A stretch of 39,607 nucleotides of DNA, taken from a virus. The DNA lies in the IMG/VR virus record IMGVR_UViG_3300049432_000198, positions 1-39,607 of that record. One strand, 5' to 3'. The position numbers and the translations under genes are program-made. Position 1 is the stretch's first letter. The number at the start of each line of letters is the position of its first letter. Positions 4,575 through 39,350 of this stretch are shown piece after piece. A model generated the notes under the pieces. That model was not told the DNA's origin, ran no database searches, and saw only the letters and a list, made by a program, of their open reading frames with translations.

Positions 4575-4946
4575 ATGCCGTGGAGGAAGAGGATCTGGCC
4601 CGTCTGGGCGCGGACCGTTGGAGCGATGATTAAACGCGGCGCGGCCGTCCGCGTCCACTGCCGTCAATGCGAAGAGTTTTTCGACGTCGACCTAGTGGCG
4701 GTCCGCCGCGCCCGCGGGCCGGATCATTCGCTCATCGACGCAAGCACCGATTGTAGGATCTCGCGCTGCCGCGGCCGCGCCTACTTCCTCGCCGCGCCGT
4801 CGATGGAGGAGACGTTCCTCCTCCTGGTCAACGCCGACATGGTCCAGCGCGGCCGGCTCGAATCGCTTCGGCCGCTCGACGTCGAGCCGCCGACGTCGGA
4901 CGAGCCGCCGCCGCCGCCGGCGCAATCGGCCGCCGTCGCGGCATAG
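4575..4946 (+). CDS. Small zinc-ribbon protein of unknown function
   Basis: A 123-aa product with two Cys pairs: C29-x2-C32 (HCRQCEEFFDVDL) and C60-x4-C65 (DCRISRCRGRAYFL). Such a four-Cys layout is typical of a structural zinc site. The C-terminal third is Pro-rich and disordered (SDEPPPPPAQSAAVAA). The Cys spacing superficially resembles Ogr/Delta activators, but VDL...SL...CR...C is closer to a zinc-ribbon type I associate with sphingomonad hypothetical proteins. It stands alone between two non-coding stretches and is codirectional with int. Start at 4575 or at the internal ATG 4626 (MIKRGAAVRVHC); the second may be the true start, since residues 1-17 look unconserved. Confidence 0.55.
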   Translation: MPWRKRIWPVWARTVGAMIKRGAAVRVHCRQCEEFFDVDLVAVRRARGPDHSLIDASTDCRISRCRGRAYFLAAPSMEETFLLLVNADMVQRGRLESLRPLDVEPPTSDEPPPPPAQSAAVAA

Positions 4947-8492: not shown

Positions 8493-8520
8493 CTGTTGTA
8501 GCGGGCCGTTCCTACAACAG
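8493..8520. promoter_or_regulatory. Late dyad 1 (putative Ogr-type activator site, P/O divergent region)
   Basis: A 28-bp element with perfect 9-bp arms CTGTTGTAG and CTACAACAG around the spacer CGGGCCGTTC. It is the exact reverse complement of dyad 2 at 15608-15635. In P2 the divergent P and O promoters are controlled by Ogr at a dyad near -55; this site occupies the same place. Read in the leftward direction its spacing to the P start matches the other copies. The rightward gene O starts 111 bp away, so its promoter geometry differs. Confidence 0.75.
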
Positions 8521-15607: not shown

Positions 15608-15635
15608 CTGTTGTAGGAACGGCCCGCTACAACAG
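15608..15635 (+). promoter_or_regulatory. Late dyad 2 (putative Ogr-type site before J)
   Basis: Arms CTGTTGTAG and CTACAACAG flank the spacer GAACGGCCCG. It is identical, in gene direction, to dyad 1 read toward P. The centre is 57.5 bp upstream of the ATG at 15679 and 48.5 bp upstream of the in-frame ATG at 15670. The stretch from 15498 to 15607 before it holds no gene. Confidence 0.75.
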
Positions 15636-22042: not shown

Positions 22043-22575
22043 TCGCATTTTTCCGGGCCGATACGGGCCGCGTCGTCAAGGTCAGCAGCGGGCACGACGC
22101 TATCCCCGAGGGCTGCGAGTCGATCGAGCTGGACGCGGCCGCGACCGCCCTGGCGGCCGAGGGCCGGTCCCTGCTCGTCGTGGACGGCCTGGTCGTGGAG
22201 GATCTCGCCGCACTGGAAGCCATGCTCTTCACCCGCATCGACGCCGAAGCCGGCGCCGCCCGAGCTTGCCTGCTCACGATCGCACCCGGGCAGGAGCTGA
22301 CCTACCTCGACAAGGAGGCGGAGGCCCGGCGCCTGGTCGACGGCGTCGATCCGGACCCGGCGGCTTTCCCGATGCTGGCGCCTGAAGCGCAAGCCTGCGG
22401 GGTCGACCTCGGAACTCTCGCCGTCATCGTCATCGAGAAGGCCGACGAAAGCCGCCGGGCCCGTGGAGCGATCGAGGCATTGAAGGCAGGAGCGAAGATG
22501 GCTGTCGCCGCGGCTGAAGGACGCGCTGCGAAGGAAGCGGCCGCCGTCGTGAACTGGGGCACGACCGCCTCTTAG
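22039..22575 (+). CDS. Tail fibre assembly / DUF4376-like protein
   Basis: A 178-aa protein whose ATG overlaps the fibre stop (ATGA). Its layout fits small tail proteins: an N-terminal beta region ([20 protein letters not shown]) and a C-terminal helical module of the form PGQELTYLDKEAEARRLVDG ... EAQACGVDLGTLAVIVIEKA ... GAIEALKAGAKMAVAAAEG. This recalls the DUF4376-type domain of tail-assembly proteins; the identification is from pattern memory. A chaperone role for the fibre upstream is likely from position. Confidence 0.6.
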   Translation: MIAFFRADTGRVVKVSSGHDAIPEGCESIELDAAATALAAEGRSLLVVDGLVVEDLAALEAMLFTRIDAEAGAARACLLTIAPGQELTYLDKEAEARRLVDGVDPDPAAFPMLAPEAQACGVDLGTLAVIVIEKADESRRARGAIEALKAGAKMAVAAAEGRAAKEAAAVVNWGTTAS

Positions 22576-22948
22576 AAAAGAGAGGGGAGGGCCCGGCGGC
22601 GCCAACCGCGCGGACCGCGGGCTGTCACCCGCACCTCCCACGGCCCGGGCCGCGCTTGGTCTCCCCACCGGGCACACCGGCGGGCCGCTTGAACCCAATT
22701 CCACAAAGGGAGTCCAGCACGATCGGCCCGGCCGAGGTTCCCGGCCGCATGTTGTAGGGCGGCCTTCCTACATCATCGGCAGGGATGGCGAGGCGGCCGC
22801 GGCGCGATAGCTCCTACTAGTCGACGGGCCCAGGCCCCCGGCCGGGCGCCGCCAACGCCCGCTAACGACGGGCTGTCACCCGTACCTCGCTCGCTTGTCG
22901 AGCTCGGCCGCGCCGGCCTTACGGCGCGGCAAGGTATGGGTTGCGATC
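22576..22948 (+). promoter_or_regulatory. Long leader before com, containing two related hairpins and a dyad
   Basis: This 373-bp stretch has no convincing gene. It contains a hairpin at 22617-22632, late dyad 3 at 22749-22776, and a second hairpin at 22868-22883. The hairpins are GCGGG-CTGTCA-CCCGC and ACGGG-CTGTCA-CCCGT; the outer pair changed G-C to A-T while the pairing was kept. The resemblance extends to flanking CGCCAAC about 15-20 bp upstream and ACCTC downstream. The closing pairing GGCCCGG/CCGGGCC around the first copy may form a larger stem. Function unknown. Confidence 0.6.
22749..22776. promoter_or_regulatory. Late dyad 3 (before com-mom)
   Basis: A diverged copy: arms ATGTTGTAG and CTACATCAT around the spacer GGCGGCCTTC. 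The spacer matches the other copies better when read on the minus strand (GAAGGCCGCC). The nearest downstream plus-strand gene, com, begins 172 bp away. It may be a weaker or differently used site for the same activator. Confidence 0.6.
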
Positions 22949-23161
22949 GTGAAGGAATCACACCGCTGCGCCGGTTGCGGGGCGCTTTTGTTCAAAGCCG
23001 CAAGGGCCGCGATTGCCGGCCTGATCGAGATCAAGTGTCGGCGCTGCGGCGCCTTCAACACCCTGAGGCCCCTGAGCCCTTCCCCGACCGCCGACAGAGC
23101 GGCCGCCAGGAGTTCAGCTTGTGGACCTCGAAACTGCCAATTCCCGCCTGGTCGACTTTGA
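22949..23161 (+). CDS. com: Com-like zinc-finger translational regulator of mom
   Basis: A 70-aa protein, close to Mu Com in length. It has C7-x2-C10 (HRCAGCGALLFKA) and C30-x2-C33 (IEIKCRRCGAFNTLRP), the zinc-binding pattern of the Com family. In Mu, Com binds the com-mom mRNA and opens the mom translation start. GTG at 22949 is chosen because it puts the first Cys pair near the N-terminus as in Mu; an upstream TTG at 22895 would add 18 unrelated residues. The 3' end overlaps the start of mom by 41 bp in another frame, the same nested arrangement as in Mu. The C-terminal half is not conserved-looking. Confidence 0.85.
   Translation: MKESHRCAGCGALLFKAARAAIAGLIEIKCRRCGAFNTLRPLSPSPTADRAAARSSACGPRNCQFPPGRL
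23110..23129 (+). promoter_or_regulatory. Possible stem-loop over the mom start
   Basis: The mom Shine-Dalgarno AGGAG (23108-23112) is partly paired in a weak stem: GAG (23110-23112) with CTC (23127-23129), a T/C mismatch, then TC with GA. The GTG start (23121) falls in the loop. In Mu a stem-loop hides the mom start until Com binds. The stem here is short, so this is a hypothesis. Confidence 0.35.
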
Positions 23162-23921
23162 CCGCCCCGTCTTCGGCGTCGCCGGCGAGTCGACCGGCTA
23201 TCTCTTCGCCCCCGGTGACGGCCGCGAGCTCGTCGGCTTCGGAAGCTACGAGTTCAGCGTCCGGATCATGGACCGGAAGCTCGCCAACGACGTCATCCTC
23301 GCGAACCACTACAGCGGCACCTACTACCGCGGCACGACGACGCACCTGGGCGTCTTCATGGGCGACCGGCTCGTCGGCGTGATCCAGTACGGCTATGCCC
23401 TCAACCCGGCCCGGGCGGGCAGCGTCGTCACCGGCACGGCCATGAACGAATATCTCGAGCTGAACCGAATGTGGCTCTCCGACGAGGCCCCGCGCAATTC
23501 CGAGAGCCGCGCCCTGGCCGCCTCGATCCGGCTGATCCGGCGGCTGCGGCCCGCGGTGAAGTGGATTCAATCCTTCGCCGACGAGCGCTGCGGCCTCAAC
23601 GGGACCGTCTACCAGGCCGCCGGCTTCACCTATCACGGCGAGCACAAGACCACCTTCCTCGAACTCGACGGCGAGTTCTTCCACCCTCTGCTGCTGACGA
23701 AGACGGCCGGCCACCATCAGCCGAAGCCGCAGCGGCTTCTCGCTGGCCTCGATCGTGTTCAGCGCCATACCTATCGGCAGTTTAGGTACCTGAGATTCCT
23801 GCAAAATCGGTTTGCCAAACACTGCCGGCATCCGGTAAGACCCTTCCCGAAACCCGACTATGCGGCCTGTCCAGTGGACGAGCGGGGCACCACCCCGTGC
23901 GAGCAAGGCGCAACCCCTTGA
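23121..23921 (+). CDS. mom: Mom-like DNA adenine modification protein
   Basis: The 266-aa product matches phage Mu Mom, a GNAT-like enzyme known to convert adenine in DNA to N6-carbamoylmethyladenine, which blocks many restriction enzymes. Visible conserved blocks: YEFSVRIMDRKLANDVILAN, NHYSGTYYRG then THLGVFMGDRLVGVIQYGYA, EYLELNRMWLSDEAPRNSES, WIQSFADERCGLNGTVYQAA and FTYHGEHKTTFLELDGEF. All lie within residues 30-195. The last 65 residues (YRQFRYLRFLQNRFAKH and a Cys-containing tail) are variable in the family. GTG start with a good Shine-Dalgarno eight bases upstream; overlaps com. A strong hairpin follows. It probably protects phage DNA during infection of restricting hosts. Confidence 0.92.
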   Translation: MDLETANSRLVDFDRPVFGVAGESTGYLFAPGDGRELVGFGSYEFSVRIMDRKLANDVILANHYSGTYYRGTTTHLGVFMGDRLVGVIQYGYALNPARAGSVVTGTAMNEYLELNRMWLSDEAPRNSESRALAASIRLIRRLRPAVKWIQSFADERCGLNGTVYQAAGFTYHGEHKTTFLELDGEFFHPLLLTKTAGHHQPKPQRLLAGLDRVQRHTYRQFRYLRFLQNRFAKHCRHPVRPFPKPDYAACPVDERGTTPCEQGATP

Positions 23922-23952
23922 GGCCGCTCCACTCCTAACCAGCCCCCGGGGA

Positions 23953-23983
23953 CCGGCAGCAGCGGATAGTCCGCTGCCGCCGG
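23953..23983 (+). terminator. Hairpin after mom
   Basis: A long stem CCGGC-GCAGCGGA paired with TCCGCTGC-GCCGG, with a single A/C mismatch and a TAG loop. No T-run follows, as is common in GC-rich genomes. It separates the com-mom unit from the next dyad 24 bp downstream. Confidence 0.6.
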
Positions 23984-24006
23984 CCCAACCCGGTTCATGG
24001 CGCCCG

Positions 24007-24034
24007 CTGTTGTAGGAGCGGGCCGCTACAACAG
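24007..24034 (+). promoter_or_regulatory. Late dyad 4 (before second fibre cluster)
   Basis: Arms CTGTTGTAG and CTACAACAG with spacer GAGCGGGCCG. The centre is 56.5 bp upstream of the ATG at 24077. It directly follows the post-mom hairpin, so a new transcription unit probably begins here. Confidence 0.75.
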
Positions 24035-24076
24035 CGGGGCCGCGCCTCGGTCCGCCCTGTCCGCCAGAACGGCGAC

Positions 24077-24613
24077 ATGCTGAATTTTCGGCCAGGTGAG
24101 AGCCCAAGCTGGCAAATCTACGTCTTCGATGACGCCGATGAAGCGCGTCGCGAGGACTGCACCGGCGCCGCGCTCGACATCGATGCGACAAACCTCGGCT
24201 TCACCCCTGCGCTCGCCTGGTCCGATCGCGCCGCCGGCGCGGCCGTGCTCTCAATGACGACGCAGCAGACGGCCACCGTGCCGCCGCGGCGCAGCTTCTG
24301 GATCAGGCTTCGCCTGCAGCTGCCCGGAGGGGAGGTGGCCGTCACGGCCGACATTCCAATCCTCAGCTGGCGGGGATCGAGCGACACGACAATCGTCCGC
24401 CTGCCCGACGCCCACAACATGCTCCACCTCACGCCAGCGGAAGAGTCTGCCGTCGGCGGCGGGCCGAAGGTGGCGATTCGCTTCGGCCGCCTTGGCGCCC
24501 GCGGGCTTCCCGGTCCGGCCGGCGGCGTGGGCCCGGCCGGCCCCCAAGGCGACCCTGCCACCAACGAAGATCCGGGCGACCTGACGCTAATCTTCGACAA
24601 CCAGTTGATCTGA
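24077..24613 (+). CDS. Phage structural protein with short collagen-like tail
   Basis: A 178-aa protein starting MLNFRPGESPSWQIYVFDDA. The first 130 residues look like a beta-rich fibre or baseplate adaptor (FWIRLRLQLPGGEVAVTADI). Near the C-terminus is a short run GLPGPAGGVGPAGPQGDP of collagen-like triplets. It is the first gene of a second fibre cluster and may link that fibre to the tail. No obvious ribosome-binding site precedes it. The family is not recognised. Confidence 0.6.
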   Translation: MLNFRPGESPSWQIYVFDDADEARREDCTGAALDIDATNLGFTPALAWSDRAAGAAVLSMTTQQTATVPPRRSFWIRLRLQLPGGEVAVTADIPILSWRGSSDTTIVRLPDAHNMLHLTPAEESAVGGGPKVAIRFGRLGARGLPGPAGGVGPAGPQGDPATNEDPGDLTLIFDNQLI

Positions 24614-27034: not shown

Positions 27035-27062
27035 CTGTTGTAGGAGCGCGCCGCTACAACAA
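27035..27062 (+). promoter_or_regulatory. Late dyad 5 (before V)
   Basis: Arms CTGTTGTAG and CTACAACAA (one end mismatch) around GAGCGCGCCG. The centre is 58.5 bp upstream of the V start at 27107. It begins 14 bp after the stop of the glycosyltransferase-like gene, with no hairpin between. Confidence 0.72.
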
Positions 27063-34260: not shown

Positions 34261-34613
34261 GCCTCATCGCCGGGCCCGACGATGTCGACATATTTTGAGA
34301 GCATCGCCTCGGCGAAGATCAGCAGCACCTCCTGATGTGCCGCGGGGAGCCGAAGATAGATGCCTGCGATCCGGGAGGCGCCCTGGCCCAGGCCTTCGGC
34401 CGCCTGGCGCTCGCCCGTTAGAATGTAGAGGACGTCGACACCCGCCGCGGCCAACAGGGCGAGATACGCCGAATCAGGCGTCGTCTTGCCCGATTCGTAG
34501 CGGCTCTGCGTGTCTAGACTGACCTCGCCCAGCCTGCCGAAGGCCGTTTGGTTGAGCCCGAGGCGCCTGCGCTCCTCTCTGAGACGTGCGACAATTTCGG
34601 CGGTGTTGCCCAA
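34257..34613 (-). CDS. XRE-family repressor (C/cI-type)
   Basis: A 118-aa protein with an N-terminal HTH (AEIVARLREERRRLGLNQTA, FGRLGEVSLDTQSRYESGKT, TPDSAYLALLAAAGVDVLYI). The C-terminal half (LPAAHQEVLLIFAEAML) is short, with no LexA-like peptidase signature, as in P2 C. It is transcribed leftward from a TTG start, opposite to the regulator operon starting at 34679. This is the layout expected of the lysogeny repressor with a divergent early promoter. Confidence 0.82.
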   Translation of the reverse strand: MGNTAEIVARLREERRRLGLNQTAFGRLGEVSLDTQSRYESGKTTPDSAYLALLAAAGVDVLYILTGERQAAEGLGQGASRIAGIYLRLPAAHQEVLLIFAEAMLSKYVDIVGPGDEA

Positions 34614-34678
34614 AACCTATTGACCTTTCGGCATTACTGCGGAATCTGTGGCGCGACGCTACAAACGGGTTTCTAGAT
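34614..34678. promoter_or_regulatory. Divergent control region between repressor and early genes
   Basis: These 65 bp separate the leftward repressor from the rightward regulators. A TTGACC box at 34620-34625 could be a -35 for the rightward promoter, but the -10 candidate about 17 bp on (AATCTG) is weak. The sequence CGCTACAAAC near 34649 resembles half of a late dyad. Operator sites for the repressor probably overlap, but no perfect repeat is obvious. Confidence 0.45.
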
Positions 34679-35014
34679 ATGCGCGCCGATTCTGTCGCCC
34701 CAATTTCGAAGGACGCGATCCTCGCTGCCCGGGCGAAACTGGTTCGTAGTGGGACCGACGCTCAGCATTGGGCGCTCGACAACGGCTATTCGCCGAACCT
34801 GGTCCGCGCGGTGCTTAGCGGCCAGCGCCGATGCCTTCGCGGCAAGTCCCGCGAGATCGCCCAGAAGCTGGCCCTCTTTTCTCCTCCTCCCTCGTCGTCC
34901 GACGCGGGCAAGGATACCTCCTCTCCCGCCGGGCACACCTTAGCGGGAGCCGGTGCGATTGACGATTTCGATCGCACCGGAATTTTGCAACTCGTTGGCG
35001 AGCCGGCCCGGTGA
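34679..35014 (+). CDS. BcepMu gp16-like HTH DNA-binding protein
   Basis: A 111-aa protein. Residues about 25-62 (DAQHWALDNGYSPNLVRAVL, then SGQRRCLRGKSREIAQKLAL) match the short HTH of phage-associated BcepMu gp16-type proteins, found near the repressor of Mu-like and P2-like phages. A role as Cro/Ner or Cox-like antagonist of the repressor is inferred from position. Start at ATG 34679 rather than upstream 34586, which would overlap the repressor gene. The C-terminal 45 residues are low complexity. Confidence 0.65.
   Translation: MRADSVAPISKDAILAARAKLVRSGTDAQHWALDNGYSPNLVRAVLSGQRRCLRGKSREIAQKLALFSPPPSSSDAGKDTSSPAGHTLAGAGAIDDFDRTGILQLVGEPAR
34950..34980 (+). terminator. Perfect inverted repeat inside the gp16-like gene
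   Basis: Arms CCGGTGCGAT and ATCGCACCGG (10 bp each, no mismatch) around an 11-base loop, followed by AATTTTGC. It has the form of an intrinsic terminator but lies within the coding region near its 3' end. It may also be an operator. See the separate finding. Confidence 0.5.
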
Positions 35015-35225: not shown

Positions 35226-35723
35226 ATGACCAAGCAGCGGGCGCCGCTGACCTTCGAGCGCGCCTTAACCCGAATCGCTGACGTCCTCGACTGGCCGAAG
35301 ATCGCCGAGATCGCCGGCAAGGACGTCCGCACCGTCCGAAACTGGAGCGACCCTGACACCAGCGCCGGCGTGACCCTCGACGTGGCCCTTCGCCTCGACG
35401 TCGCCTACCGCGCGGCCGGCGGCGAAGGCGCTCCGCTTTTCCAATGCTACGGCCTCCGTCTTGAGGCGGACACCGCGACGGCCTGCGCCGATCAGCGGGA
35501 CTTGGCGGATACAGCAGCTATCGCGGCGAAGGAGGCGGGCGAGGCAATCTCCGCGACCATCGTCGCAGCGCAGCCGGGCGCGACCCGGGAGCAACGGGCC
35601 AGGGCCCAGCTTGAGATCGAGGAATCGGTCACTGCCTTACAGAACACGCTCGCCAAGCTCCGGACCCAGGACGGGTGCCGCGACGTGCAATCCCCGGGGG
35701 GGGAGACCGACCAAAATGCGTAA
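35226..35723 (+). CDS. CII/CP76-like phage regulatory protein
   Basis: A 165-aa protein whose N-terminal 60 residues (LTFERALTRIADVLDWPKIA, EIAGKDVRTVRNWSDPDTSA) are the HTH form typical of phage CII-like regulators. A helical region follows (TAAIAAKEAGEAISATIVAA, QARAQLEIEESVTALQN-like), probably an oligomerisation coil. Start at ATG 35226 follows a GGGAGAG sequence. The last eight bases overlap the start of the Ogr-like gene. A role in the lysis-lysogeny switch is inferred from position. Confidence 0.7.
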   Translation: MTKQRAPLTFERALTRIADVLDWPKIAEIAGKDVRTVRNWSDPDTSAGVTLDVALRLDVAYRAAGGEGAPLFQCYGLRLEADTATACADQRDLADTAAIAAKEAGEAISATIVAAQPGATREQRARAQLEIEESVTALQNTLAKLRTQDGCRDVQSPGGETDQNA

Positions 35724-36054
35724 ATCTGTCCAGCGTTCAAACTGCCTCCATTGCCAAGAGCCGCTGCTCGTTCGCAGTAGCCGGGAGGAAATTCCTACGC
35801 TTCGGCGCCTCATTCTCGATTGCACGAACGTCAAATGCCTGGCCCGCTTCGGCGGCGAGCTGACGATCACGCACGGGATCAGCGCCAGCCTGAATCCGAA
35901 CCCAACCGTCGACCTTCGCATGTCGCCGCCCCGGCGGCCCGTCGCGGACAACGACAATCTCGGCCGGCAGATCCTGGTCAGCGCCTCGGAGGTGGCGCCG
36001 CCCGCTGCAAACGACGACGGCTCCCACAGCGAAGCCGTCGCCACGGGCACTTAG
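35716..36054 (+). CDS. ogr: Ogr/Delta-like zinc-finger late transcription activator
   Basis: A 112-aa protein with Cys10-x2-Cys13 (NCLHCQEP) and Cys36-x4-Cys41 (DCTNVKCLARF), separated by 22 residues. The C-x2-C-x22-C-x4-C arrangement is the same as P2 Ogr. CTNVKC corresponds to CQNVNC of Ogr, and SASLNPNPTVDLRMSPP fits the segment after the finger. In P2 and P4, Ogr/Delta proteins bind dyads near -55 and activate late promoters by contacting RNA polymerase. This is the natural candidate to act at the five dyads in the window. The C-terminal 45 residues are Ala/Asp-rich and unlike Ogr. It overlaps the CII-like gene by eight bases. Confidence 0.85.
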   Translation: MRKSVQRSNCLHCQEPLLVRSSREEIPTLRRLILDCTNVKCLARFGGELTITHGISASLNPNPTVDLRMSPPRRPVADNDNLGRQILVSASEVAPPAANDDGSHSEAVATGT

Positions 36055-37486: not shown

Positions 37487-37595
37487 CCCTATTCCGACGC
37501 ACCGGGGTCCTGAACCCGGTGTGGAGCAGTTGCCCTGCCGCCGATCGGAAACGTCTCTCGCGGCGTCCCACAACAACCGCAGACGAGGTCCCAAT

Positions 37596-39350
37596 ATGAC
37601 GTCCCACATCGCTTTAAGCAAGCTTCACCCCTCCCCGGAGAACGTCCGAAAGACGAAGCCGGACGAGGATATTCCGGCCCTGGCCGACAGCATCGAGGCC
37701 AAGGGCCTCCTGCAAAATCTCGTGGTCTCGGAGGCGCCGGACGGGGAGGGCCGCTACGAGGTCGACGCCGGCGGCCGCCGTTGGCGCGCCCTTCGCCTGC
37801 TCATGACGGAGCGGCGCACGGTTAAGGGCGTCCGCGTCACCCGGGATTTCCCGGTGCCGGTCGTCATCATCCCGCGCGAGGACGCGGCCGAGGCCAGCCT
37901 CGCCGAGAATGAGCGTATCGCCCTGAACCCGGCCGACGAGGTTCAAGCCTATCCCGTCATCATTGAGCGCTACGCCGCGCAGGGGATTGTCGACTCGCGG
38001 GAGCAGGTGGCCAAGCTCGCCAAGCGATTCGGCCGCACCGTTCATTATGTCGACCAACGCCTCCGCTTGGCCGCGCTGGCGCCCGAGATCCTCGAAGCGC
38101 TCCGCGTCGATCAGATCAGCGTCAAGGCGGCCGAGGCCTACGCTTCGCACCCGGACCACGCCGAGCAGCTCCGAGTGTTCAAGGTGGAGGTGCGGAAGCC
38201 CGCCTCCTGGGCTCACGATCCGCGCTCGGTCAAAGACGCGCTGAAGGGGCGCATCTTCCCCGCCGATCATCCGGCGGTCCTTTACATCGGCCTCGACGCC
38301 TATCGCGAGGCCGGCGGCCGCGTCGATCGCGACTTGTTCATGGGCGAGGCGGAGCGCGAGCAGCTGCTCGATCCCTCCATCGTGGAGCGGCTGGCCGGGG
38401 AGAAGGCGGCAGCTGAGGCCGCCGAGCTGGCCAAGGCCGCCGGTTATGAGGGCGGCCTAGTCAAGCCGTTCATCGGCCCAATCTATCAGCCCCCGGTTGC
38501 GCCGAAAGGCTACGTCATCACCTACGACAAGCCGGTAAAGAAGCTGCGCGCCGCCGTCTTTCTCTGCTTCGAGTTGAAGGGCGACGGCTCTGGGCTGCGC
38601 CCAATGGAGCCGGAGCGGTTCGCCGTTCTCGAAGAGGTTGTCCGGCAGCAGAAACCTCCCGGCGAGACGCGCGACTATGCCGCGGAGCGGGCGGCCGAAG
38701 CCCGGGAAATGGAGCTAGAGCGCCGGGCCGTCATCCTCGCTGCGCCGAAGGTGGCGGGGACGCCGCTGGAAGGCCGCGCGTTCTGGCCGAAGGCGGACGC
38801 CTGCTACCTCGAACCGATCGTCCACGACGAGGAGGAGGGCGTCTACGTCGCCTGCCTGTTCGTCAAGATCCCAGTCGCCGAGGTTGAGGCCGCGAAGGAG
38901 GCGGCCGAATGGGAGCTGGTTCTGGAGGAGCAGGCGGCGGAGTCCGAGCGGGCGCGGGCCGCATCGGCCGCCGAGGCCAAGGCGGCGATCGGCGAGACCC
39001 CGGCGCCGGCCGAGCTGGCCGCCTACGTCCTCCAGCGGCTCGACGGCGCAACCGTCCCAACCGATCCGACACAAGCGACAGAGGCGAGGGAGGCCTTCGC
39101 CGAGGCGCTCCTCAGCGCCCTGGTCGAGGGCTTCGGCGCCAAGTACCGGCACAAGCCGCCGCACGACTACCACCTGACCCTCGCCGGCGTCACTCGGTCG
39201 TGCACGTCCGGCCGGTTCTCGCTGCTGCGCGAATGGGCCGTGAAAGCCGCCGAGGTGAAGGTCGAGCCGCCTGCGGCCGCTGACGAGGCACCGGCTGACG
39301 CCGGAGCCAAGACGGCTACGGCCGAGCCGGTAGCGGAGCTGCAGGCGTGA
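37596..39350 (+). CDS. Large ParB/Spo0J-family protein
   Basis: A 584-aa protein. Residues about 1-115 form the ParB N-terminal domain: LSKLHPSPENVRKTKPDEDI, ADSIEAKGLLQNLVV, the GGRRWRAL box, and ENERIALNPADEV. Residues 125-190 are the HTH (VAKLAKRFGRTVHYVDQRLR, LAALAPEILEALRVDQISVK). The long C-terminal part (over 350 residues) is Ala/Glu-rich, with GYVITYDKPVKKLRAAVFLC and a coiled-coil zone (VEAAKEAAEWELVLEEQAAE). No ParA partner is visible, so classic partition is unlikely; such lone ParBs in mobile elements may act as CTP-dependent DNA-binding or regulatory proteins. GTG/ATG choice: ATG 37596 follows GAGG at 37585. Confidence 0.85.
   Translation: MTSHIALSKLHPSPENVRKTKPDEDIPALADSIEAKGLLQNLVVSEAPDGEGRYEVDAGGRRWRALRLLMTERRTVKGVRVTRDFPVPVVIIPREDAAEASLAENERIALNPADEVQAYPVIIERYAAQGIVDSREQVAKLAKRFGRTVHYVDQRLRLAALAPEILEALRVDQISVKAAEAYASHPDHAEQLRVFKVEVRKPASWAHDPRSVKDALKGRIFPADHPAVLYIGLDAYREAGGRVDRDLFMGEAEREQLLDPSIVERLAGEKAAAEAAELAKAAGYEGGLVKPFIGPIYQPPVAPKGYVITYDKPVKKLRAAVFLCFELKGDGSGLRPMEPERFAVLEEVVRQQKPPGETRDYAAERAAEAREMELERRAVILAAPKVAGTPLEGRAFWPKADACYLEPIVHDEEEGVYVACLFVKIPVAEVEAAKEAAEWELVLEEQAAESERARAASAAEAKAAIGETPAPAELAAYVLQRLDGATVPTDPTQATEAREAFAEALLSALVEGFGAKYRHKPPHDYHLTLAGVTRSCTSGRFSLLREWAVKAAEVKVEPPAAADEAPADAGAKTATAEPVAELQA

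Follow-up and report, generated by a model that had tools for sequence, protein, structure and literature searches.

A modular DNA-modification cassette with a structured leader RNA in the late region of a P2-type phage

Introduction

The Mom protein of phage Mu makes N6-carbamoylmethyladenine in DNA, and work on Com has so far treated it as an activator private to Mom. A com-mom pair located among the late genes of a P2-type phage hence raises the question of where the two genes came from, and of how their expression might be controlled in such a setting. Here we address both questions in IMG/VR virus record IMGVR_UViG_3300049432_000198, the whole 39,607 bases of which are referred to as the window.

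Results

The com-mom pair and its setting

Protein profile searches confirm that the com-mom pair proposed in the initial annotation is real, since both frames are open and both families are matched above their curated cut-offs. The cassette comprises the following features:

22949..23161, + strand: com, zinc-ribbon translational activator; GTG start, 70 aa; PF10122 E 8.7e-8
23108..23112, + strand: AGGAG, likely Shine-Dalgarno sequence of mom, read from the sequence
23121..23921, + strand: mom, Mom-family DNA-modification enzyme; GTG start, 266 aa; PF25680 E 4e-65
23950..23986, + strand: hairpin after mom, a terminator-like cassette end; 17-nt arms, 88% complementary

The window Com scores 31.9 bits against PF10122 (cut-off 22.9) and matches phrog_6417 at 8.6e-9, and its four cysteines align with those of Mu Com, bearing out the Cys pattern that had been read from the translation. 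The window Mom reaches 219.7 bits against PF25680 (cut-off 27.1; residues 45-244 over model positions 2-202) and 1.6e-54 against phrog_1384. Across nine aligned Mom proteins, including that of Mu, the blocks HYS, ELNRMWL, PRNSES, FADERCG and VYQA are invariant, and most of the Mom blocks named beforehand correspond to these columns. The reported 41-bp overlap of the two genes is also present, but it is probably a mere by-product, because com stops at the start of a dam gene in the closest sister phage (G001, IMGVR_UViG_3300044703_000143, the capsid of which is 95% identical to that of the window) and the window com frame simply continues into mom.

The P2-type setting claimed for the pair is supported by a P2-type structural gene set, an Ogr/Delta gene and five matching late dyads. 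The layout is that of a P2-type phage, with portal-terminase opposed to scaffold-capsid-TerS, the tail genes, and ogr after D. As first described, com-mom lies between two fiber regions, with a dyad ahead of com and the hairpin at 23950-23986 after mom. The dyad pattern, TGTTGTAG-N10-CTACAACA, occurs at five window sites with 0-1 mismatch (expectation in shuffled sequence, 0.01). The putative late-control elements are:

8494..8519, no strand: late dyad, terminase (-) / scaffold (+) interval; pattern match
15609..15634, no strand: late dyad ahead of baseplate gene J; pattern match
22750..22775, no strand: late-promoter-like dyad ahead of the com leader; pattern match, also in G001
24008..24033, no strand: late dyad ahead of the fiber genes 3' of mom; pattern match
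27036..27061, no strand: late dyad ahead of spike gene V; pattern match
35716..36054, + strand: ogr/delta-like late activator; CX2CX22CX4C; PF04606 E 1.2e-8 at 35740-35874

P2 Ogr is defined by the motif CX2CX22CX4C, and its site in P2 late promoters is described as TGT-N12-ACA (PMC3931495). The window protein carries exactly this Cys motif, and its PF04606 domain scores 31 bits in a six-frame search (cut-off 26.3); the domain was found in 31 of the 32 P2-like records searched, the window counted among them. A PHROG, Pfam and Cys-pattern search of short ORFs in the window did not pick up the ogr gene, and a Cys-rich ORF at 4575-4946, considered as an Ogr candidate, was dropped once the six-frame PF04606 search had located the real gene at 35740-35874. 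The suggestion of an Ogr-type late site before com is upheld: the Ogr/Delta protein and the presence of the same dyad before com of G001 speak for it, but the spacing is unlike that of P2, the inner TGT and ACA being 14 bases apart at all five window sites. The dyads of G001 stand before com, J, the next fiber genes and V, and another lies between terminase and scaffold.

Other features lie towards the ends of the window: a tRNA-Asn (gtt) near the left end (2006-2080), within a long TTG-start frame, is a possible attachment site, and a ParB-like protein (37521-39350) and an HTH protein of phrog_925 (34586-35014) are encoded near the right end.

Exchange of the enzyme behind com

Com was found in one and Mom in none of 50 P2-like records searched. 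The former is present in G001, which has the same dyads, leaders and com as the window and lacks Mom. DNA similarity between the two phages extends over 22575-23111 at 74%, covering the leader region, the dyad and com; it ends at the end of com and returns at 23943, past the mom stop. The slot of mom is filled in G001 by a D12-type (Dam-type) adenine methyltransferase gene, the start of which overlaps the com stop. A third relative (G002) has neither com nor the dyad at this point, and the leader element leads directly into the ATG of dam.

The affinities of the two window proteins point in different directions. Com shares 82% identity with its counterpart in the com-dam sister and 34% with that of Mu. 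Regarding Mom, an 18-row tree (in which the translations of L005, L008 and L010, on the window side, and of pAEv1818 have one in-frame or terminal stop as X) unites Mu, pAEv1818, L014, L358, L360, PAN70 and JD024 on a Mu-side branch with 98/100 support; the window Mom lies opposite that branch, grouped with com-less sphingomonad Moms. A com gene is present beside six of the seven Mu-side Moms, including an unannotated one in the 300-370 nt gap 5' of mom in the Pseudomonas phages JD024 (L367) and PAN70 (L368); each phage shows two hairpin motifs of the Com type and gave no match to the leader. No CxxC...CxxC frame was found within 700 bases upstream of mom at any of the 11 com-less loci. Sequence comparison indicates that the window mom most likely came from a com-less sphingomonad phage and was set behind an existing com; the simplest history would be one in which leader-com-dam came first and the mom of a com-less phage later replaced dam.

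Com relatives and the predicted Com target hairpin

Among the best 80 of 187 confirmed Com relatives in IMG/VR, the gene 3' of com encodes a C5 methyltransferase in 48 cases, a D12 enzyme in 12, another methyltransferase in 12 and an ATPase-GNAT protein in seven, one com having no such gene; Mom directly follows Com in none of these 80. Pfam assignments for the 79 downstream ORFs are congruent with this distribution (PF00145, 48; PF02086, 12; PF01555, 11; PF00005, six; GNAT, five). A Mu-type transposase domain was detected in 12 of 48 com-bearing viral records searched and in neither of two bacterial genomes, which implies that Com occurs in Mu-like and other phages alike. A tblastn search of a phage collection with a single 63-aa Com query yielded no match, probably reflecting the limit of so short a query.

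The ATPase-GNAT proteins have a fusion-like appearance (L200, L219, L229, L240, L251, L256 and L259, the seven found among the best 80 of 187) and possibly represent an undescribed DNA modification. Tandem modules were also observed, with leader-dam-com-C5 in L183 and leader-dam near com-C5 in L204, and dam adjoins com-C5 in L340 and L342.

The hairpin bound by Com in a Mu-like prophage of Haemophilus bears the motif CC(N)2-3GAG, has a C-G-closed loop of six bases and adjoins a structure hiding the mom start (PMC6483171). A counterpart is found in the window:

23067..23078, + strand: predicted Com-binding hairpin GGC|CCCUGA|GCC, in the 3' part of com, 52 nt upstream of mom

The com hairpin of G001 reads GGC|CUUUGA|GCC, and 52 nt is the commonest hairpin-to-gene spacing among hairpins of the eight-letter type. 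Examination of 83 com genes (the 80 best of 187 from IMG/VR plus those of the window, L014 and Mu) identified a hairpin of at least three pairs in the 3' part of 73, many of these sequences being related and the counts hence not independent; ten com genes had none. In controls the hairpin turned up at 3-5%, in 48 of 1602 segments taken from downstream genes and in 217 of 4150 shuffles by codon. Counted by the gene behind com, the hairpin is present as follows: Mom-linked (3/3), C5 (43/48), D12 (11/12), N4/N6 (9/9), other methyltransferase (3/3), ATPase-GNAT (3/7) and none (1/1). The eight-letter hairpin says less on structure because it lies within conserved codons and its stem is almost invariant. 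The seven-letter type, aligned from 26 of the 29 such hairpins of IMG/VR and L014 taken together (L224 and near-duplicates omitted), comprises 18 distinct sequences with 100% of cells paired, and its covariation of 0.495, as against 0.142 in shuffles, was reached by none of 500 shuffles. Across these loci Com would seem to activate the translation of phage DNA-modification genes in general, and its RNA target appears to have been kept by covariation. The mom start region of the window, folded alone, gives a z of -1.41, no better than shuffles, and so lends no support here to that part of the Mu model in which the start is hidden.

A structured leader RNA ahead of modification genes

The element ahead of the G002 dam gene is also found in front of further phage dam genes, where the hairpins are retained and the letters differ. 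The pattern CGGGCTGNNACCCGNACC returned 81 IMG/VR stretches, most of which looked like chance and were set aside; six, all before dam, showed extended similarity. A MAFFT alignment of 18 mixed leaders, analyzed with RNAalifold, retained helix P2 alone, and the covariance model, termed R1, was therefore built on seven leaders of one architecture. All seven are dam leaders, to which the window, G001 and the com loci contributed none. R1 has 27 pairs, 12 of them with compensatory change, and a covariation of 0.392 against 0.144 in shuffles. It identifies two copies in the window, the next-best match being at E 0.12:

22586..22712, + strand: leader copy 1, orphan after the tail-fiber genes; R1 73.9 bits, E 3.3e-19
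22840..22957, + strand: leader copy 2, into the com start codon; R1 27.6 bits, E 4.4e-6; fold z -3.07

Copy 1 shares 81% DNA identity with the G002 dam leader, aligned up to the dam start codon, and its fold is unremarkable (z -0.06). The position of the dam ATG reads AAAGGGAG in the window; as this ATG is altered in both the window and G001, copy 1 is an orphan leader. Copy 2 taken alone is a weak match at 27.6 bits, and the second copy of G001 is weaker still (E 0.0045). In both phages the tandem copies flank the dyad.

The structure is well supported. Among 61 distinct leaders, matched at E <=1e-4 and taken from 61 chosen sources, 91.7% of cells are paired and 26 of the 27 pairs show compensation, with a covariation of 0.618 against 0.157, in an alignment that is fitted to the model and in which many rows are related; shifting the partners by 1-3 columns lowers the score to <=0.071. 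A search of Rfam 15 gave no leader match in window positions 22400-24150 (save mir-718 at E 0.68), 13 dam loci or six com-locus leaders. A literature search that was scant on subscription journals, and is hence weak, returned neither a description of the leader RNA nor an account of Com ahead of other modification enzymes.

At R1 E <=0.01, 51 of 78 dam loci have the leader immediately upstream of dam, five of those 51 being training sequences. Of the 80 com loci, 52 were covered by the leader search and 33 of these have an adjacent match (C5, 22/28; D12, 8/11; ATPase-GNAT, 3/5); the 19 com loci with none include all seven N4/N6 loci and the single other locus. Six of 11 mom loci, three of them near-identical, have the leader just before a com-less mom, and one more shows a weak match (E 0.0015); Mu, L011 and L014 gave no match. 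In 42 P2-like capsid loci chosen regardless of com, dam or mom, all nine leader matches precede dam. Scans of bacterial genomes returned 11 matches in 296 Sphingomonadales genomes, ten of them before dam or com, and 13 in 398 Pseudomonadota genomes, 11 of them before dam or com (the match in L352 is counted in both samples). The Pseudomonadota scan includes leader-com-mom (L358, L360), leader-com-C5 (L364) and leader-com-dam (L357, L363, L365, L366) arrangements. Eleven named phages with dam relatives yielded a match in four and none in seven.

Dyad-like sites were also noted about 60 bases 5' of the dam leaders of L115, L124 and L174, and the order dyad-leader-enzyme may accordingly recur without com. 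Furthermore, ATGGAG is retained where many dam genes, and some com and mom genes, have their start codon, even though the proteins are unrelated, which hints at an RNA-level constraint beyond the start.

Copy 2 offers a possible means of control. The window sequence ACCCGUACCU, formed by the 3' arm of P3 and the bases that follow, is able to base-pair with AGGUAUGGGU in the ribosome-binding region of com, and the G001 counterparts, ACCCGUAUC and GAUACGGGU, show one compensating difference. We hypothesize from these two sequences that the com start would be open when P3 is formed and closed by the alternative pairing. Measured from their centres, the dyads lie 48-59 bp ahead of the start codons of TerL, J, the fiber gene at 24077 and V, and the centre of the com dyad is 77 bp upstream of leader copy 2. 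In P2 the activator works at about 55 bp ahead of the transcription start; if P2 geometry holds, the mRNAs of the former four may be nearly leaderless, and the com mRNA would begin just 5' of the leader.

Discussion

A proposed mechanism and its alternatives

The constant dyad, leader and com, combined with a variable enzyme, suggest a single, shared switch at the RNA level for the self-modification of phage DNA, and a modular, RNA-gated late cassette with which the phage modifies its own DNA is probably the best explanation of the locus. The RNA structure and the modularity are well supported; we infer the trigger and the chemistry. As the dyads and the ogr gene suggest, an Ogr-type activator at the dyad 22750-22775 would start a late mRNA, the 5' part of which would be leader copy 2. 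The leader, its structure borne out by covariation, may then gate com translation, the 3' arm of P3 pairing either within that hairpin or with the com ribosome-binding region. Once made, Com would bind the hairpin at the 3' end of its own coding sequence and free the start of the next gene; motif and position are those observed here, and the mechanism is transferred from Mu. Comparison of loci shows that this next gene is exchangeable, being mom in the window, a D12 adenine methyltransferase gene in G001 and mostly a C5 gene elsewhere. Finally, to judge from its family, Mom would modify adenines of the progeny DNA late, protecting it from host restriction.

The initial annotation had proposed that a Mu-type com-mom pair moved into the P2-like late region as a unit. 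Both genes are indeed homologous to those of Mu, with order and overlap kept, but Com and Mom do not share closest relatives: the window Com is nearest to that of the com-dam sister (82%, as against 34% to Mu), the window Mom falls outside the Mu-side clade (98/100), and the similarity break runs exactly between com and mom. The Mu locus, moreover, has no leader, and we reject a unit transfer, the least probable of the alternatives. Scarcely more credible is a decaying, unexpressed cassette with mom as a passenger: the loss of the start codon behind leader copy 1 and the run-on tail of Com would fit decay, but both frames are intact, the conserved Mom blocks are retained, the hairpin stands 52 nt before mom, the commonest spacing for the eight-letter type, and the dyad and leader copy 2 persist.

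The remaining alternatives concern the leader itself. It might be a DNA-level recombination or tail-fiber-end element, or an mRNA stabilizer, kept as an aid to cassette exchange and with no regulatory role, a reading consistent with the tandem copies around the dyad in the window and G001 and with the fact that cassettes do get exchanged at this site. We consider it improbable, since compensatory changes in 26 of 27 pairs argue for selection on RNA pairing, and since the leader usually extends as far as the start codon of a com, dam or mom gene, or into it, and is found in records of different phage types. A much stronger contender, to which we would give only slightly less than an even chance, is that the leader is a protein-binding site (for a repressor of the phage, an RNA-binding protein of the host or the enzymes themselves) and not a small-molecule riboswitch. 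The leader serves methyltransferases, Mom and ATPase-GNAT proteins, enzymes of such different chemistry that a single cofactor ligand is not obvious, and the window com leader appears able to switch between P3 and ribosome-binding-site pairing; on the other hand, Com is an improbable partner, because com-less dam and mom genes have the leader in front of them as well. The RNA-gated, modular cassette admits of a broader and more tentative form, which we put forward as a possibility short of even likelihood: the leader may represent a cis-acting RNA of a class not yet described and devoted to the self-modification of phage DNA, a single sensor that would gate enzymes of unrelated chemistry (Dam-type enzymes, C5 enzymes via com, Mom and ATPase-GNAT proteins) and keep them silent in the lysogen or in early infection, with Com as a plug-in second lock behind which enzymes are swappable.

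A leader without an Rfam entry marks modification genes in phages and prophages and can be used to find them, including those of the ATPase-GNAT proteins behind com, which may perform unfamiliar DNA chemistry. The window and G001, with the same promoter, leader and com and a different enzyme, amount to a natural experiment, and their contrast allows a direct test of whether Com depends on Mom or just on its hairpin.

Comparison with known systems

The com-mom operon of Mu (NC_000929) resembles the window in that com overlaps mom, the protein families are the same and com contains a CC(N)3GAG hairpin; it differs in having no leader match, and the Mom proteins of the window and Mu share 42% identity over the alignment. 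Late control also differs, as mom of Mu is controlled by protein C (PMC4461284), whereas the window presents dyad/Ogr-type signals. With the P2-type phages, as described in PMC3931495, the window shares the structural gene set, the CX2CX22CX4C Ogr and dyads ahead of late operons, but its dyads follow TGTTGTAG-N10-CTACAACA instead of TGT-N12-ACA and one of them precedes a modification cassette.

The leader has counterparts directly 5' of orphan dam genes in the Sinorhizobium phages Aussie and StopSmel and the Microcystis phages Mwe-Yong1 and Mae-JY29 (E 8e-5 to 6e-6), in which, unlike in the window, no com is annotated; the leader is likewise unannotated there. An RNA next to a methylase gene is also on record in Candidatus Pelagibacter, where a simple motif with almost unconserved loops and linkers lies in the chromosomal rnhB1-methylase gap (PMC2704228); it is compared here by its published description, and kinship is not claimed. 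The Com target of the Haemophilus Mu-like prophage, finally, is a C-G-closed hexaloop hairpin that carries 5'-CC(N)2-3GAG-3' and lies ahead of the regulated start, as predicted for the window; described in PMC6483171 for mom mRNA, it stands here also before genes for C5, D12 and N4/N6 methyltransferases and ATPase-GNAT proteins.
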